From a virus: 38,340 nucleotides of DNA. The notes under the pieces were generated by a model that saw only the letters and a list, made by a program, of their open reading frames with translations, made no database searches and had not been told where the DNA came from. How positions within the stretch are numbered: position 1 is the first letter of the stretch; every line of letters starts with the position of its first letter. Below are positions 18,773 to 36,159 of the stretch, one piece after another. A program made the position numbers and the translations under genes. The stretch covers positions 1-38,340 of IMG/VR virus record IMGVR_UViG_3300048834_001320. One strand, written 5' to 3'.

Positions 18773-18812
18773 AAACAAAAAGGCCGCGCGAGTTCGGTAA
18801 CTCGCACGGCCT
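18773..18812 (-). terminator. Intrinsic terminator upstream of the head operon
   Basis: Inverted repeat 18781-18812 with arms AGGCCGNGCGAGTT and AACTCGCNCGGCCT, one mismatch and a 4-nt loop. On the minus strand it is followed by a run of six T. It would stop leftward transcription arriving from the terminase side, just 28 nt before the gpW-like start. Confidence 0.7.
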
Positions 18813-28515: not shown

Positions 28516-30959
28516 CACAGCACCTCCTTCATGCCGATGCCCTCGTAGAACGTCGTATTGCCCGTTGCACGTCGCCGTGTGACACCCGGGACGGCAGCAG
28601 CCAGATCGCGCCCAAACGTCTGCTTGGTCGTGACCACGCTGCGACCTTCCTGCTCGCACCAGGTCTTCCATGCGGCGTACAGGTCGTCGACCCATGCCCG
28701 CATGCCCGGCCCCACGTCGCAGCGTTCGCGCACGAACGCACCCACTGGGCTGGACAAGTCCTCCATATCCCGCACCGCGTCCTCGACGCTGGTCGGCTGC
28801 ACGAAGTGCCCGCGCTCGCGCAGGCGACGCCAGCCCTCGATGGCCCAGTTGAGGATGCCCGGCAACTCCGTGAGCAGCTTGGCGGTCAGCGTCTTGTCCT
28901 CGCGGCCGTAGAAGCTGTTGGTCAGCCGCAGGATCATGAACCGGCCCGCCAGCGCCCCGGAGGCGTCGTTCAACCGTGGCAGCTCGTTGGACAGGAAGAC
29001 GAACCGCGTGGGCAGCTTCATGGTCACGGAAGTCTTGTGCTTGCGCTCGACCGTGAGCGTGTCCTCGCCGCTGATGCACAGCAGGCGCTCGACCACGGCC
29101 TGGATACCCTCGCCGCTGAAGCGGGCGTCGGAGACCACGGCCAGCGACTTGCCGATGAGCGGCTGCAGCCCGAAGTTGCCCGCCAGGCTGGTCGTCGTCG
29201 GCCCGCAGACGTTGCCTGCGCCGACCAGATGCGTCAGCACGCGCCCGATCGTGCCCTTGCCGCTGCGCTTGGGCCCCACGAGCAGCAGCATCTTCTGCTG
29301 GGACGTGTCGCCGGTCAGGCAGTAGCCGAACCATTCCTGCAGCAGATCCCAGGACTCCATGTCGTCGTCGAACAGCATCTGCAGGAACGCGATCCACTGC
29401 TCAGGCAGGCCGGCGCTGGGGTCGGGGTCGTAGTCCAGCGCGTAGACCGTGAAGAACTGCGGCGTCGGGGGCATGTGCCGCATCGTGGGCAGGTACAGCA
29501 GCGACGACTTGCAGGGCAGAACGTCAGCAGCCGTGGGCATGTTCGATGCGTCGCCCAGCCAGGACGGAGATACCGTCGTCGCCGGCAGATGCGTGACCGC
29601 CTTGATCGACTCGAGTGCCGCATTGACCGTCGTGGGATTCGCCGGGAAGTCCTCGGCGACCCAGCCGCCGTCCTTGTCCATCACCATGCGAACGGCGTCA
29701 TGCATCCAGGGCAGCAGCGTGTGGCGCATGCCGTCGTCTTCGATCTCGACGTACCGGTTGTCCCGCCAGGCGACCAGCATCCCGGCGTAGTGGTGGAGCG
29801 TGCGCCCGCCGGCATGTCGATGGAATCGCTGGATGAACGAATCGGCCGTGGGCAGCGTCCGCTTCGTGGACAGGATGAGGCGGCTTGTCCCCGGATCGAT
29901 CGTGCCCGGGGCAGGTTCGGCGGCGACGGGGCCTTTGGGGACTGGGCTGCTGGCTGAGCCGTTCGTATTGGCCTTCCGCTTGCGAGACTTCCGCAGACTC
30001 GGCGTGTACTGCTGCGTCACCTTGGCCAGCGCCTTGGCGATGGTCATGCTGCCGTAGGTCTGCTCGCCGTGGTACTCGTCCCACTTGTCGCGCATGAGGC
30101 CGGACGCGCGGAACATGCGGTCGATCTGGCCGGCGTCCTTGGTGTAGAACGCCAGCGTGAACACGACCGACGAGTCGGCCTCGCTGCGGGAGTTGAAGTG
30201 GGCATTCCAGTTGCCTGCCCACAGCTGGGCGAACTTCTCGCCGCGCCCGTTGCGGCGGGTGCTGGCCAGGCGGATGATCTCGGCGTCGTCGAGGTGGCCG
30301 TTGTTGGATGGCGATGGCGTGGCGGCTGGCGACGGGCCCGAAGCGGCTGCCGACGGGCTTGCAGTGGCTGACTCGCCCGAGGGCGGCTCGCCGAAGACCT
30401 CGACGTACAGGGCATTGAGCTGGTCCTGGCGCGGCTCCACGGTCGCTGGAGCAGAATCACACCGCATGCCCGTAACCGTGAAGAACCGGTCGCGGTCGTA
30501 CATCTCGATCTCGCGGTCCTCGTACCGACGCCGGCAGCGTTCGCCGGGCTTCTCGGCCATGACGAAGATCTTCACGCCGGTCCCGGACGGACTGATCTCC
30601 GTGTAGCTGGCCAGGTCTCCAATGATCCGCTGCGCCCACGGCTTGATCTGGCCCGTGGCCGGGTCGATGCAACTGTCAATATCGACGCCGCAGTACGGAT
30701 CGTCGGCCGCGAACACGTAGCCGACGCCGGCGAGCTGGTCGTAAGTCCGGGCAGCGGCGATCGCCTCATCGAACGACGCCCAGGTGCCGGGCGCTGTGGA
30801 ATCGGCCAGTTCGCCGGTGCGGGCGTTGACCGGGCACTTGGTCATGCGCCCGTCGCGCTCGACGTAGCGCCAGCAGACCCACTGTGGACGCTGCTTCAGG
30901 CAGTCCGGAGCGTTGGCGACGATCGCCTCGAGGTTGGTGGTTGGATGTGGTGCAGTCAT
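28515..30959 (-). CDS. Phage primase-polymerase/D5-type helicase
   Basis: 814 aa, ATG at 30959 (ATGA overlap with the helicase stop); the frame continues to 31091 but inside that gene. Residues 20-190 form a prim-pol domain like that of NrS-1-type phage polymerases, with GVDID (acidic 93 and 95) and SPSGTGVKIF at 123-132. A Ser/Pro-rich linker lies at 190-220. The C-terminal half is a D5/P4-type superfamily 3 helicase with Walker A GPKRSGKGT at 562-570. It likely primes and unwinds DNA at the phage origin. The repeat array directly downstream is a candidate origin. Confidence 0.9.
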   Translation of the reverse strand: MTAPHPTTNLEAIVANAPDCLKQRPQWVCWRYVERDGRMTKCPVNARTGELADSTAPGTWASFDEAIAAARTYDQLAGVGYVFAADDPYCGVDIDSCIDPATGQIKPWAQRIIGDLASYTEISPSGTGVKIFVMAEKPGERCRRRYEDREIEMYDRDRFFTVTGMRCDSAPATVEPRQDQLNALYVEVFGEPPSGESATASPSAAASGPSPAATPSPSNNGHLDDAEIIRLASTRRNGRGEKFAQLWAGNWNAHFNSRSEADSSVVFTLAFYTKDAGQIDRMFRASGLMRDKWDEYHGEQTYGSMTIAKALAKVTQQYTPSLRKSRKRKANTNGSASSPVPKGPVAAEPAPGTIDPGTSRLILSTKRTLPTADSFIQRFHRHAGGRTLHHYAGMLVAWRDNRYVEIEDDGMRHTLLPWMHDAVRMVMDKDGGWVAEDFPANPTTVNAALESIKAVTHLPATTVSPSWLGDASNMPTAADVLPCKSSLLYLPTMRHMPPTPQFFTVYALDYDPDPSAGLPEQWIAFLQMLFDDDMESWDLLQEWFGYCLTGDTSQQKMLLLVGPKRSGKGTIGRVLTHLVGAGNVCGPTTTSLAGNFGLQPLIGKSLAVVSDARFSGEGIQAVVERLLCISGEDTLTVERKHKTSVTMKLPTRFVFLSNELPRLNDASGALAGRFMILRLTNSFYGREDKTLTAKLLTELPGILNWAIEGWRRLRERGHFVQPTSVEDAVRDMEDLSSPVGAFVRERCDVGPGMRAWVDDLYAAWKTWCEQEGRSVVTTKQTFGRDLAAAVPGVTRRRATGNTTFYEGIGMKEVL

Positions 30960-33085
30960 TCGCACGACGCCTCCTGCGGGGCCAGGGATTGCGATGCCGA
31001 TGCCCAGCGACTCAGGAACGTCCGGCGGTGGATCACGTTGTTCTTCTTCGCGGCGCTGCTCAGGCCCCAGCGGTCGCCCAGCAGCACGCACGTCTGCGAC
31101 GCCCGGGTCACCGCGGTGTAGAGCCAGTTGCGGTCGGCGAAGAAGTGCGACTTGTGGCAGAGCACCACCGCGCAGGGGAACTCGCTGCCCTGGGCCTTAT
31201 GCGCCGTCAGGGCGTAGGCGAGCATGACGTTGGACAAGCGCTCGCCCTCGATGATCTTTGGGCCCACGCCGTCGAAGGCGATGGCGTATCCAGCCTTCAC
31301 CACGTCCACGACGAACCCGATCGTGCCGTTCATGACGCCCAGCTCGTAGTCGTTGCTGGTCTGGATGACCTTGTCGCCGAGGCAGAACTTCTTCTCGACG
31401 CGGCCCTGCAAGAGAAGCTGCATCGCCTCGTTGATCGCCTTGGTGCCCAGTGGGCCCTTGTGCGTCGGCGTGATGATCTGCACGTCACGGACAGGCTCGT
31501 AGCCGAACCGTGTCGGCAGCCGGTCGAGAATCAGGTCACGCAGGTACAACTGAATCTGCTGGGCGTCGGAGAACTGGTCGACCACGATCCACCGTGTGTC
31601 GTTGTCCATCTCGGTCGGGTGGACGGCTCCACGCAGCACGGCGGTGCTGTTGCACTTGAGCACGCCGGCTTGGCGGTAGACCTTGTCCAACACCACCGTG
31701 GGCACGAGCTGGTGCTGCACGAGGTCGCGCAGCACGTTGCCAGGGCCGACGGGCGGCAGCTGGTTGTGATCGCCGACCAGGACCAGCCGCGTCCGGCTGA
31801 AGTCGATCCGCTCCAGCAGGTTCGCCATCAGCGGCACGTCGACCATCGACACTTCGTCAACGATCACCACGTCGGCGTCCACGGTCTCGACGCCGAAGCT
31901 CATGCCGTTGTATTCGAGCATGCGGTGGATGGTGCTCGCCTCGAGCTGCAACTGGTACTTGCTGCGGAGCAACTCCTCGATCCGCTTGGCAGCCTTGCCC
32001 GTCGGGGCGCACAGCTTCACGACCAGGTCGGCATGCTGGCAGGTCTGCGCCAACCGCGCCACGACGTAGGTCTTGCCGGTGCCCGCCAGGCCTGAGATGA
32101 CGCTGATCCGGTGCCGCAGGGCGCACCGATATGCCTCGGCCTGCTGCGGGCTGAGGTTCGAGATGTCGAACGCCCCGGTGATCAGCGGGCACTCAGAGGT
32201 GCTGTACCGCTCGAACGTCTGCCGGATGGTCTGCTCAGCCTCGAGGAAGTACGGCGTGGTCACAGCGGAGCTGTCCGCGACCATGTCGCCGGCCGCCAGC
32301 AGGCGATCACCTGCCTGGTGGATGAGGTCGTGGGCATCGAGCGTGTCGAGCACCAGCAATTCGTTGGCCTTCTCGATCAGGTCGCAACCGGCGGTCCAGG
32401 TGTGCCCGCTGCCGATCTGCTCGGTCAGGCAGTACATCAGGCCCGCCTCGATCCGGCCGGGGTGGTTCTTCGCTACGCCAGTGGCCCGAGCGATCTGGTC
32501 CACCTTCTTGAAGCCGTAGCCCTTGACGTGCTGGATCAGCTTGTACGGGTCGGCCCGCAGCACGCTCACCACCGAGTCGCCGTACACCTCGATCAGCGTG
32601 TTCATCTGGTGGTGCGTCAGCCCGAACCCCGCCAGGTATGTGCGAAGCTCGTTCTCGGCACTGTTGGCGATCCACGCCGCACGAAGCTGCGCGAGCGTGG
32701 CCCGCGGAATCCGCAGCTTCTCGTACAGGTCGTCGGAGCCCTCGCGGATCATGCGGTCGAGCGCCTCGGCGCTGCCGGCGTGCGTCACCAGCTTGCGGGC
32801 CGTGGCCTCGCCGATGCCGACGAAGCCCGGGTGCTTGACGAGGTAGTTGGCCAGGCCATCGAGGTTGTCGGGCAGGTCGTACCGCAGGGCCGTGACGGTG
32901 AACTGGTGGCCGTACTTGCGATCGAGCGTCCACGAGCCGACCAGGGCAACGACGTCGCCGTCGTTGGCACAGAATTTCCCGCAGAACCGGACCTGCCGGC
33001 CGTCGTCGCCCTCGAGCAGGCCCGCGGAGAACTGGGGCCCGCTGTGGTAGACGCGTGTGATTGTGCCACGAATGGTTTCAGGCAT
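30956..33085 (-). CDS. RecD2-like DNA helicase
   Basis: 709 aa, ATG at 33085, 8 nt inside the nuclease gene end; an upstream in-frame extension is not supported. An N-terminal OB-like region (1-70) is followed by tandem helix-hairpin-helix segments (80-205). The SF1B helicase core has Walker A GLAGTGKT at 332-339, VVIVDEVSM at 406-414, and C-terminal motifs YALTAHKAQGSEF and LYTAVTRAS. This is the RecD2 (RecBC-independent) layout. It unwinds 5'-3' in replication and recombination and is co-transcribed with an ERCC4 nuclease and a primase. Confidence 0.92.
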   Translation of the reverse strand: MPETIRGTITRVYHSGPQFSAGLLEGDDGRQVRFCGKFCANDGDVVALVGSWTLDRKYGHQFTVTALRYDLPDNLDGLANYLVKHPGFVGIGEATARKLVTHAGSAEALDRMIREGSDDLYEKLRIPRATLAQLRAAWIANSAENELRTYLAGFGLTHHQMNTLIEVYGDSVVSVLRADPYKLIQHVKGYGFKKVDQIARATGVAKNHPGRIEAGLMYCLTEQIGSGHTWTAGCDLIEKANELLVLDTLDAHDLIHQAGDRLLAAGDMVADSSAVTTPYFLEAEQTIRQTFERYSTSECPLITGAFDISNLSPQQAEAYRCALRHRISVISGLAGTGKTYVVARLAQTCQHADLVVKLCAPTGKAAKRIEELLRSKYQLQLEASTIHRMLEYNGMSFGVETVDADVVIVDEVSMVDVPLMANLLERIDFSRTRLVLVGDHNQLPPVGPGNVLRDLVQHQLVPTVVLDKVYRQAGVLKCNSTAVLRGAVHPTEMDNDTRWIVVDQFSDAQQIQLYLRDLILDRLPTRFGYEPVRDVQIITPTHKGPLGTKAINEAMQLLLQGRVEKKFCLGDKVIQTSNDYELGVMNGTIGFVVDVVKAGYAIAFDGVGPKIIEGERLSNVMLAYALTAHKAQGSEFPCAVVLCHKSHFFADRNWLYTAVTRASQTCVLLGDRWGLSSAAKKNNVIHRRTFLSRWASASQSLAPQEASCE

Positions 33086-33524
33086 GCGCCACCTCCCGCA
33101 CGAACATGCGCAGGAACTGATCCGTGAAGGCGCACGCCGCTTGGCGGCTGCCGCACCAGTAGACCGGCACGCGGAAACGCACGGCCACGTACAGCGCCGC
33201 CCCGAGCACGGACGTGGGCGAAGCACCCCGCAGCTTGTCTGCCGCGAGCCCACGCAAGACGGCATCGAGGTCAGCTTCGACCACGACGCACGCGCTGCGC
33301 ATGGCCCCAAGCTTCATCAGCTCGATGGCGAAGCGGTCGAAGTCGTGGATGACGGTGTGAACGAAGTCGGGCAGGCTCTTGCGCTCGACGGCCACCGCGT
33401 CCTCGTGGCCGACGACCGAGTAGTCGCCGGCGTCGAGCCTGCGGCGCACCGTGTCGCAGGTGAACGTGTAGGGCTCCTGCTCACGCGTATCGATGACGAT
33501 TTGAAAGCTCATGGCGGTGTTCAT
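33078..33524 (-). CDS. ERCC4-type (XPF-like) nuclease
   Basis: 148 aa from the ATG at 33524; a second ATG at 33512 is possible. The sequence carries the ERCC4 motif order: IDTREQEPYTF, LDAGDYSVVG, then VERKSLPDFVHTV with the catalytic ERK. It is a compact nuclease without a HhH tail, probably acting on branched or flapped DNA. It precedes the RecD2 helicase with an 8-nt overlap. Its leader contains the three-way-junction element. Confidence 0.88.
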   Translation of the reverse strand: MNTAMSFQIVIDTREQEPYTFTCDTVRRRLDAGDYSVVGHEDAVAVERKSLPDFVHTVIHDFDRFAIELMKLGAMRSACVVVEADLDAVLRGLAADKLRGASPTSVLGAALYVAVRFRVPVYWCGSRQAACAFTDQFLRMFVREVAHA

Positions 33525-33562
33525 CCGTGAAACGTGAATCCGTCCGTGCCCCCGGAACCTTG

Positions 33563-33652
33563 GCCCCGGATAAAGCCGCCCCCGAAAGACTTACAGCGGT
33601 GCAGCGCATGCTTTCGGGAGCGGCCCCACGACACAGGCTGGGTATCCGGGGC
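33563..33652 (-). ncRNA. Candidate structured RNA: compact three-way junction leader element
   Basis: On the minus strand: P1 GCCCCGGATA (33652-33643) pairs perfectly with TATCCGGGGC (33572-33563). P3 is CCCA/TGGG (33642-33625). P2 GCCGCTCCCGAAAG (33624-33611) pairs with CTTTCGGGGGCGGC (33588-33575) with one mismatch and a 22-nt loop. Two bases separate P2 from P1, giving a tight three-way junction. It ends 38 nt before the ERCC4 nuclease start and has no T run, so it is not a terminator. It may be a cis-regulatory leader, a small RNA or a DNA cruciform. Confidence 0.6.
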
Positions 33653-33664
33653 AGATTTTGGGGG

Positions 33665-34237
33665 TCAGAAGGGCGCGGGTTCCTTGGACAGGTCGATCCC
33701 GCTGTCCGCGCCCGGGGGGATGTTCAGCAGCTTGTTGAAGTACACGTTGGCGTACTCGCCCTTGGTGCGCTTGGTCACGTCGATGGTCAGGTCGAGCAGC
33801 TCGTCCAGGTGGTTGGGCAACTCGCTGAACCGTTGCAGCTTGAGGCCCAGCGTCTGCAGGTCCGCCTTCACGAACGGCAGCGACGCCTGCGTGATCACCG
33901 AGTTCTTGAAGATGTGCCGCCCAGCGTGCTGGCCCGAGATGATCACCGTGTCCCACTTGATCATCGGGTCGTTCTTCTGGCTACGGGCGAGCTTGACTGT
34001 GTGGACGCGCACCTGGTACTTGCCGTCGGGCACCTCGTCGAACTCCGGCGTCTCGGCCTCGGCGTAGTCGTCGTCGAAGGTGGTCAGGTCGGCCGCGGCA
34101 CCCGACGCCTGATGCGCGTCGTCGTGCGCGGGGAACGCCTCCCGGTCGAATGCGCCGGAGCCGGGGGTGCCGGATGATTCCGGCGTCTCGGGTGCGGTCT
34201 GGTCAGGAGCGGTCTGGGACTCATGGGTCGTGGTCAT
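33665..34237 (-). CDS. DUF669-like protein, probable ssDNA-binding/recombination partner
   Basis: 190 aa, ATG at 34237. A Thr/Pro/Ala-rich and acidic N-terminal segment (1-65) is followed by a domain of the DUF669 type: PDGKYQVRVHTVKL, PMIKWDTVII, HAGRHIFKN, then DLQTLGL and LDLTIDVTKRTKGEYANVYFNKL. Such proteins sit beside Sak4-type ATPases in phages and are thought to bind ssDNA. The gene 13 nt upstream is exactly such an ATPase. Confidence 0.7.
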   Translation of the reverse strand: MTTTHESQTAPDQTAPETPESSGTPGSGAFDREAFPAHDDAHQASGAAADLTTFDDDYAEAETPEFDEVPDGKYQVRVHTVKLARSQKNDPMIKWDTVIISGQHAGRHIFKNSVITQASLPFVKADLQTLGLKLQRFSELPNHLDELLDLTIDVTKRTKGEYANVYFNKLLNIPPGADSGIDLSKEPAPF

Positions 34238-34250
34238 GGGCAGGGTCCTT

Positions 34251-34973
34251 TCACTTGGACGGTTTGGAGGAAGGCACAGCGAACGCCTTGGCGAAGGCGT
34301 CAAAACTCAGAGGCAGGGATTCGGGCAGGCGGCCGGTGCGATCGCCGGCCTCATAGGTCGGATGGGGCTTCGTGCGGATGATCCGGTCCACCACCACGTT
34401 GCCGCCGGCGTCCTTACGCGGCACGGTGTCGCAGAAGAGGATCATGTCCACGAGGCCGAGCACGACCTGGCGGGCCCGGTCAGGCAGGCTGGGCTGGGTC
34501 TTGGTGTACTCGCCGGTGCGCGTCTCGATGGTCTTGTCCACGGCGTGGCTGATCAGCACCAGGCCGTAGGGCAGGCTCGCCAACCGCGTGAGCACGCGGT
34601 GCCACTCGTTTTTCACCAGCGCCCAGCCTTTGCCGTGGCCGAGGTCGCCTTCGTACTCGATGTTGTGCTTGCCGCAGATGAACTCCGAGCAGTACTTGAA
34701 GGCGTTGTCCGCCGTGTCGATGACGATGGTCTTGAACTCGTGGTCGCCGGCGGCGATGAGCTTGCACGCTGCCAGGAAGTCCGGCCACGTGTAGGTCGGC
34801 ATCTTGAACACTTCGAGCTCGTTCAGGCCCGGCTCGCACTCCAGGAAGAGCGCGTTGGGAAACCGGCTGGCGAAGGTGCTCTTGCCGATCTTGGGCGGGC
34901 CATAGACCAGCGTGGACTTGGTCGAAAGATCGACCGTGGGTTTGCTGCGTGTCGTGGGCAACGTCAAGGTCAT
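34251..34973 (-). CDS. Sak4-like RecA-fold ATPase
   Basis: 240 aa, ATG at 34973; an upstream in-frame extension lies in the spacer. Walker A YGPPKIGKST is at about 24-33 and Walker B TIVIDTADN at 82-90; the end has a VDMILFCDT strand. Size and motifs fit the phage AAA_24/Sak4 family of RAD51-like single-strand annealing ATPases. It should cooperate with the adjacent DUF669-like protein and Cas4-like nuclease in phage recombination. Confidence 0.85.
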   Translation of the reverse strand: MTLTLPTTRSKPTVDLSTKSTLVYGPPKIGKSTFASRFPNALFLECEPGLNELEVFKMPTYTWPDFLAACKLIAAGDHEFKTIVIDTADNAFKYCSEFICGKHNIEYEGDLGHGKGWALVKNEWHRVLTRLASLPYGLVLISHAVDKTIETRTGEYTKTQPSLPDRARQVVLGLVDMILFCDTVPRKDAGGNVVVDRIIRTKPHPTYEAGDRTGRLPESLPLSFDAFAKAFAVPSSKPSK

Positions 34974-35010
34974 CGTGGTCTCCTTGGGCAAGAGAAGGGT
35001 GGGGTTTGGT

Positions 35011-36159
35011 TCAGAAGTCGAGGTCGTCGTCAGCGCCGCCGACGGGATCGCCACCGACGGTCAGCTCGACCAGTTCCTCATGGGGAGGCGCGATCTCGAA
35101 CAGGTTGTCGCGCACGTTCGAGCTGAAGCCCGACTGGCAATAGGGCAGGTATTCACACGGCCGCTGGTACGAGAAGCAGTTCGACGTGTTGAGCAGCCAC
35201 TTGCCACGCCGGCGCGCGTCCAGGTACTGCTGCGTGATCTCCCACACCTCTTCCTGCAACATCGCCATGCGGTCGTCGGACAGGTAGATGCGCTCACGGT
35301 GGAAGGATTCGGGCCGCGCGTACCATTCATGCAGACGGGCGCGGAACTCGTCGTCCGTCTCCGGCATCTGCTGCTTGGCCGTTGAGCGACCCGTCTTGTT
35401 CTTGGCGGCCAGTTCCGCGCGTCGGGCCTCGAACTCCTGCACCGTTTCGCCGGCACGCTGCTTCAGACGGGTTTTGAGCAGGACGTTGTAGATCACGCCC
35501 ACGATCGGGTAGCCCAGCTCACGGAGGTAGTGGCAGTAGAGCGCGATCTGCGTGTCGGTCCACAGGCGGTCGAGGTAGTCGGACGTGATCGCCGAGGCCG
35601 TCTTGTGCTCGAGCAGGTACAGCTCACGGCCCATGCGCACGATGCCGTCGGCCTTCCCGGCCATCATGAACGTCTGGCTCAGGCGGTTGGTGTCGGGGTT
35701 GCGAATCTCGGCCTGGAATTCCTTCTCGATCTCGACGATCTCGAACTCCTCGACGGCGTACCGATCGGCGTACCCGGCGAACATGGCCCGGGCGACGTGC
35801 CACTGGTGCTTTTGCTGCTCGTCGCCCCCGCGAAGGGGGAACTGCGCGTCGAGGTAGTCGAAGATCTGGAACAGCCGGGTGGTCATCGAATCGACAGCCA
35901 CTTGGCGGTGCCATCGCTCCAGTGCCCCGTGCATCACCGAGCCGAACACCAAGGCCTCTGGGCGCTCAGGGCGGCGCAGATGGTCGAGATAGCGGTGCTT
36001 GTACTTCCGCGGGCAGTTGCGGAACGTGTTCAAGGCCGAGTAGGTGAGGACGTTCTTCATGGTCGTGGGTGCGGGCTTGGTGGTGAGGTCGTGCGGGAAG
36101 ATGTCGCGGCGGTAGTCGCCCTGGCCGAGACTGACGAGAGGGGTGGTGTCGTGGGTCAT
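35011..36159 (-). CDS. Cas4-like PD-(D/E)XK nuclease with Fe-S cysteines
   Basis: 382 aa from the ATG at 36159, which overlaps the upstream stop as ATGA; an internal ATG at 36060 gives a shorter form. Cys49 (NTFRNCPRKY) and Cys328, Cys335 and Cys341 form the split cysteine set of Cas4/AddB-type 4Fe-4S nucleases. His78, Asp171 (GKADGIVR) and Glu185/Lys187 (LLEHKTA) are the nuclease motifs. It probably resects DNA ends for the Sak4-type annealing system. No cas1 or cas2 and no CRISPR array are present, so it is not a CRISPR gene. Confidence 0.88.
   Translation of the reverse strand: MTHDTTPLVSLGQGDYRRDIFPHDLTTKPAPTTMKNVLTYSALNTFRNCPRKYKHRYLDHLRRPERPEALVFGSVMHGALERWHRQVAVDSMTTRLFQIFDYLDAQFPLRGGDEQQKHQWHVARAMFAGYADRYAVEEFEIVEIEKEFQAEIRNPDTNRLSQTFMMAGKADGIVRMGRELYLLEHKTASAITSDYLDRLWTDTQIALYCHYLRELGYPIVGVIYNVLLKTRLKQRAGETVQEFEARRAELAAKNKTGRSTAKQQMPETDDEFRARLHEWYARPESFHRERIYLSDDRMAMLQEEVWEITQQYLDARRRGKWLLNTSNCFSYQRPCEYLPYCQSGFSSNVRDNLFEIAPPHEELVELTVGGDPVGGADDDLDF

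Follow-up and report, generated by a model that had tools for sequence, protein, structure and literature searches.

A Structured RNA Element Between Recombination Genes of a Putative Planctomycete Phage: A Candidate Operon-Internal Terminator or Attenuator

The Element and Its Gene Neighborhood

What kind of element is a strongly structured stretch of DNA that separates two groups of genes in a leftward phage operon? The window analyzed in this study, a virus contig, comprises 38,340 bases, and the element lies at 33563–33652 on its minus strand, in the direction of leftward transcription. The operon is organized in the order integrase, PDDEXK exonuclease, Sak4-like annealing ATPase (34251–35054; PF13479; phrog_124, E-value 2.6e-49), DUF669 single-strand DNA-binding-like (SSB-like) protein (33665–34303; PF05037; phrog_7778), the element, ERCC4-type nuclease (33078–33524; PF02732, E-value 1.7e-15; phrog_3490), RecD2-like helicase (30956–33310) and primase, the four genes with coordinates all being encoded on the minus strand. 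A noncoding gap of 140 nt (33525–33664) extends from the DUF669 stop to the ERCC4 start, in agreement with the gap of about 140 nt described in an earlier note on this DNA. The element starts 12 nt past the DUF669 stop and ends about 38 nt ahead of the ERCC4 start. Prophage-like copies in planctomycete genomes suggest that the planctomycetes are the host phylum of this phage.

The transcribed, minus-strand RNA of the element has a minimum free energy of −54.6 kcal/mol, while the opposite strand folds at −49.5 kcal/mol. The outer stem (GCCCCGGAUA/UAUCCGGGGC) comprises 10 perfect base pairs between a 5′ arm at 33643–33652 and a 3′ arm at 33563–33572, and a third stem of 4 bp pairs CCCA (33639–33642) with UGGG (33625–33628); the earlier note had given the exact coordinates of the element and had described both of these stems. 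The inner stem pairs GCCGCUCCCGAAAG (33611–33624) with CUUUCGGGGGCGGC (33575–33588) over 14 positions, as proposed before, but the single mismatch reported for it is a U.G wobble in the RNA. Two additional features are embedded in this fold, specifically an 11-nt motif GUCGUGGGGCC (33622–33632), which includes the 3′ arm of the third stem, and a degenerate U-run UUUAU (33570–33574), which directly follows the inner stem and is overlapped by the 3′ arm of the outer stem.

This structure is most unlikely to have arisen as a mobile repeat or by chance folding of a G+C-rich noncoding stretch. The outer stem is indeed not conserved, but none of 200 shuffled sequences reached as low an energy (mean −36.7, sd 3.5, z −5.1), a single window among the 7650 sliding 90-nt windows of the same strand folds better (the element being the second most stable), related loci contain syntenic hairpins with compensatory changes, and the element is present as a single copy, with no second copy in the window.

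No Rfam 15 family (hammerhead, twister, HDV-like, riboswitches and others) was matched by the window or its relatives at gathering or relaxed thresholds, and the best sub-threshold matches of the element are at chance level. The earlier note had looked for the hammerhead core and the full twister core without finding them, and had recommended such a database search. ARAGORN recognized no tRNA cloverleaf in the element and blastn found no match to it among cultured phages. Our literature search, which covered papers outside subscription journals, retrieved no paper describing these RNAs; an earlier description in a subscription paper is possible.

Related Loci Conserve the Inner Hairpin

Relatives were collected by searches of viral contigs with ERCC4, DUF669 and Sak4, by pattern scans, and by a survey of 392 genomes representing the phylum of one planctomycete metagenome-assembled genome (MAG). 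Seven loci share the type of the window element, here called T1: the window, L002, L008, L026, L019, L096 and L191, the last of which lies in a genome of the surveyed phylum. All seven encode an identical GUCGUGGGGCC, followed by a long hairpin and then GGCUU. Past its first four pairs, the letters of the inner helix differ among three lineages while pairing is kept, with two-sided changes at seven positions after L002 had been realigned by hand for a 1-nt bulge; the uncorrected count is eight because the bulge shifts L002. The sequence of the apical part is not conserved.

The other two stems behave differently from the inner one. The outer stem is 10 bp long in the window and 6 bp long in L002 (the ERCC4 proteins of the two are 93% identical) and is at chance level in the other T1 loci, exceeding chance in the window only; the perfect 10-bp stem is a window-specific extension. 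The third stem requires CCCA upstream of GUCGUGGGGCC; this stem is missing from the L008 group and from L096, the loci without it being L008, L019, L026, L096 and L191. The three-way junction put forward as a unit in the earlier note therefore survives in its inner hairpin but not in its lineage-specific outer stem or in its third stem, and the covariation that had been named as its check is found in the inner stem. The proposal of an undescribed structured phage RNA is strengthened by the lack of an Rfam match, the compensatory changes in the inner stem and the better fold of the sense strand.

This last property also bears on a DNA site, i.e., a cruciform, a replication origin or a protein-binding palindrome, part of which had been considered before. 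Such a site would suit a near-palindrome that adjoins replication genes and folds on both strands. It is nevertheless very unlikely, since the sense strand, through its G.U pairs, is the more stable of the two strands in all seven T1 loci, the U-run is oriented, and the letters of the helix change freely, unlike those of a protein site.

A scan of viral contigs with the type-1 pattern gave 12 matches, four of them at the T1 locus (L019, L022, L025, L026); the others lack a similar hairpin and were dismissed as chance matches. In L008, L019, L026 and L191, a second hairpin (GACG...CGUC) is located just upstream of GUCGUGGGGCC, and its middle pairs appear to show compensatory changes between loci.

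The U-Run and Terminator Character

The earlier note had excluded a terminator on the ground that the outer stem has no U tract behind it. That is correct for the outer stem only, as the inner hairpin is directly followed by UUUAU in the window, by UUUUU in L002, L019 and L191, by UUUU in L008 and L026, and by UUGG in L096. Hence, of the six T1 loci besides the window, five have a U4–U5 run right behind the inner stem (T-tail score 4.1–4.6, with 4.57 for L002), and what is conserved, though overlooked in that exclusion, is the inner hairpin together with its U-run. The T-tail score of the window itself is 3.86, a value equalled or exceeded at 0.14% of the GGC positions on that strand. Overall, the earlier interpretation of this element was borne out in part.

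The reading that we favor, with roughly an even chance (about 0.5), is that the element is an RNA hairpin of the intrinsic terminator or attenuator kind, located inside the leftward early operon between the Sak4-DUF669 (SSB-like) genes and the ERCC4-RecD2-primase genes. It shares with intrinsic (rho-independent) terminators and operon attenuators a stable hairpin, rich in G+C and formed by the transcribed strand, a position between cistrons and, in most relatives, a tail rich in U. It differs from them by its interrupted tail, its stem of 15–16 bp, which is longer than usual for terminators, its lineage-specific outer stem and an invariant 11-nt motif, which overlaps the stem base on its 5′ side and is not required of a plain terminator. 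The UUGG of L096 likewise argues against termination. A consensus terminator scan did not report the element, probably due to the loop and tail limits of the scan. A clear canonical terminator, AGGCCGUGCGAG..CUCGCGCGGCCUUUUUG, is found elsewhere in the window (18781–18812, minus strand; T-tail score 4.87).

In an operon-internal terminator or attenuator, the nascent RNA would fold into the 15–16 bp hairpin, followed by the U-run, as RNA polymerase leaves DUF669, upon which a fraction of the polymerases would pause or terminate. The hairpin would stabilize the 3′ end of the Sak4-DUF669 mRNA and would lower transcription of the nuclease, helicase and primase genes downstream. Both the termination or attenuation step and its effect on gene dosage are what we infer from this arrangement. 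Since the closely related L002 has an intact UUUUU, the hairpin of the window appears to be one of terminator type that has decayed and acquired an outer stem. With its U-run reduced to UUUAU and a 10-bp outer stem gained, it is therefore probably leakier and more of an mRNA boundary. Taken alone, as what is probably a terminator-like attenuator, the window element represents a modest result.

The same helix might instead act on RNA processing or stability, with RNase III cleavage or a block to exonucleases splitting the two mRNAs of the operon. A long, near-perfect helix between cistrons is compatible with this, as are the enclosure of the U-run by the outer stem in the window and the tRNA-like RNAs that replace the hairpin in some relatives, which would be processing sites too. 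We regard it as unlikely, given that it leaves unexplained why most relatives have kept the U-run.

The Slot After DUF669 Contains Different Structured RNAs

We compared the gap after DUF669 (hereafter the slot) in 53 distinct loci of the Sak4 clade and found a structured RNA in most of them. The slot contains a T1 element in seven loci, a second type (T2) in 22, a third type (T3) in 10, and a tRNA-like RNA (T4) in four; of the other 10, one is L197/L003 (the same contig), whose hairpin belongs to none of these types, and nine are loci without a recognized element. Usually, the slot is occupied by a T1, T2 or T3 hairpin whose base is of the GGCC or GGCU type and which has a U-run. T-tail scores of the T4 loci were left out of account, since some of them had been taken at wrong places. 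Outside the Sak4 clade, the DUF669 and ERCC4 genes are mostly adjacent without a gap, or plain hairpins lie between them. RNA types are strongly clustered on the Sak4 tree, where T1 requires a single, weakly supported change and has neighbors bearing T2 and a tRNA-like gene. The slot in these planctomycete-phage recombination operons is thus a place where different structured RNAs swap while the gene order stays.

T2 is a clearly covarying RNA of planctomycete phages and prophages, distinct from T1, with the signature GGGAUGGCGUG..AGACUCCCCGNG (e.g., L045:5356–5453, L005:3855–3958, L034:282–350, L183:1493–1610, and others). In the alignment of 22 sequences, GGGAUGGCGUG and AGACUCCCCGNG are nearly invariant and the core letters are unpaired and invariant; 94.4% of the stem cells are paired, compared to 31–54% when the stems are slid, and 12 of the 17 pairs have changed on both sides; on each measure, none of 500 shuffles did as well. 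Full-length copies have an inner hairpin with the conserved loop GCCGGGU, and Rfam 15 contains no family for T2. Our T2 model, R1, provides a concrete search model; it matched eight of the 392 genomes at nine places, all nine lying no more than about 600 nt from a Sak4 or divergent Sak4 gene. The RNA follows DUF669 in clade A and is located in a Sak4 leader in the others, often that of a second, divergent Sak4.

The window element and T2 (GGGAUGGCGUG..AGACUCCCCGNGCCC) have the slot, the gene neighbors, a GUG(G/C)GGCC-like base and, in clade A, the U-run in common, yet the internal core of the window element is different. With true T2 members scoring 42–78 bits against R1, the window element (6.2 bits) is at noise level, an unrelated stretch scoring 8.2 bits; it does not match the model with its AUGGCGUG and AGACUCCCCG core and was rejected as a T2 member. 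L003 has a motif-like sequence, but its GATGGCG sits in another hairpin; because R1 does not find L003, L003/L197 was assigned to the other type and the T2 count is 22 of 53. Matches to the T2 pattern in L039 (Micromonospora), L036 and L038 were unsupported by R1.

The main rival to the terminator reading, which we hold tentatively, is a dedicated structured RNA with its own function, either a cis leader bound by a factor from the phage or the host, or a processed small RNA. T2 would then be the better conserved form, the window element a derived or replacing one, and the terminator-like end simply the 3′ end of the RNA. Consistent with this are the 22 T2 loci with their invariant unpaired core and strong covariation, the Sak4/SSB genes beside each R1 match of the survey, the tRNA-like RNAs that fill the slot in other relatives, the nesting of T1 beside T2-bearing lineages on the Sak4 tree and the invariant 11-nt motif of T1. 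The noise-level score of the window element and the unconserved apical sequence of T1 weigh against it. In such a scheme, which we judge possible but doubtful, planctomycete phages would reserve this slot beside their Sak4/SSB genes for a new class of regulatory RNA; T2, or derived forms as in the window, would sense a phage or host factor (e.g., SSB) and thereby switch the nuclease, helicase and primase genes that lie downstream. The slots of T1 and T2 may share an origin. If T2 is regulatory, phage recombination would come under RNA control in a phylum whose phages have hardly been studied genetically.

Comparison With Known Phage RNAs

The putRNA of phage HK022, a cis RNA some 70 nt long, belongs to an early operon and is located downstream of the early promoters, where its two stem-loops and a triplex bind RNA polymerase and prevent termination (PMC9378689). 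The element resembles it as a structured cis RNA of a phage early operon but consists of one long hairpin inside the operon with a U-run; the two differ in position and anatomy, and their sequence and structure were compared through Rfam. The autoregulatory structure of the T4 gene 32 mRNA is a pseudoknot in the leader that precedes the gene (PMC535899). Both systems place a structured RNA beside a phage SSB gene; however, T1 comes after the SSB-like gene, and only the T2 copies upstream of a divergent Sak4 are leader-like.

T3 and tRNA-Like RNAs in the Slot

The T3 hairpin (ACGGGUGCGGCUGGGACGG..CCGUCCCGGCUUUC) is located after DUF669 and before RusA-like genes in L052, L077, L078–L086, L089 and L098. 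The tRNA-like RNAs (L049:5309–5455, L057:5277–5423, L059:5342–5464, L060:5282–5400) have a T-arm GCAGGUUCGANUCCUGC, an acceptor-like GGAUCGG/CCGAUCC and an anticodon region that is long or missing. ARAGORN found no tRNA at these four loci, and Rfam gave none in the three that were scanned (L049, L057, L060). In addition, three of the 22 T2 loci carry a tRNA-Met-like gene (CAU) directly upstream of T2 (L004:2359–2433; L041:2404–2479, minus strand; L042:4509–4581), and such genes in the slot are limited to these three. One of them has an unusual anticodon call (cata).
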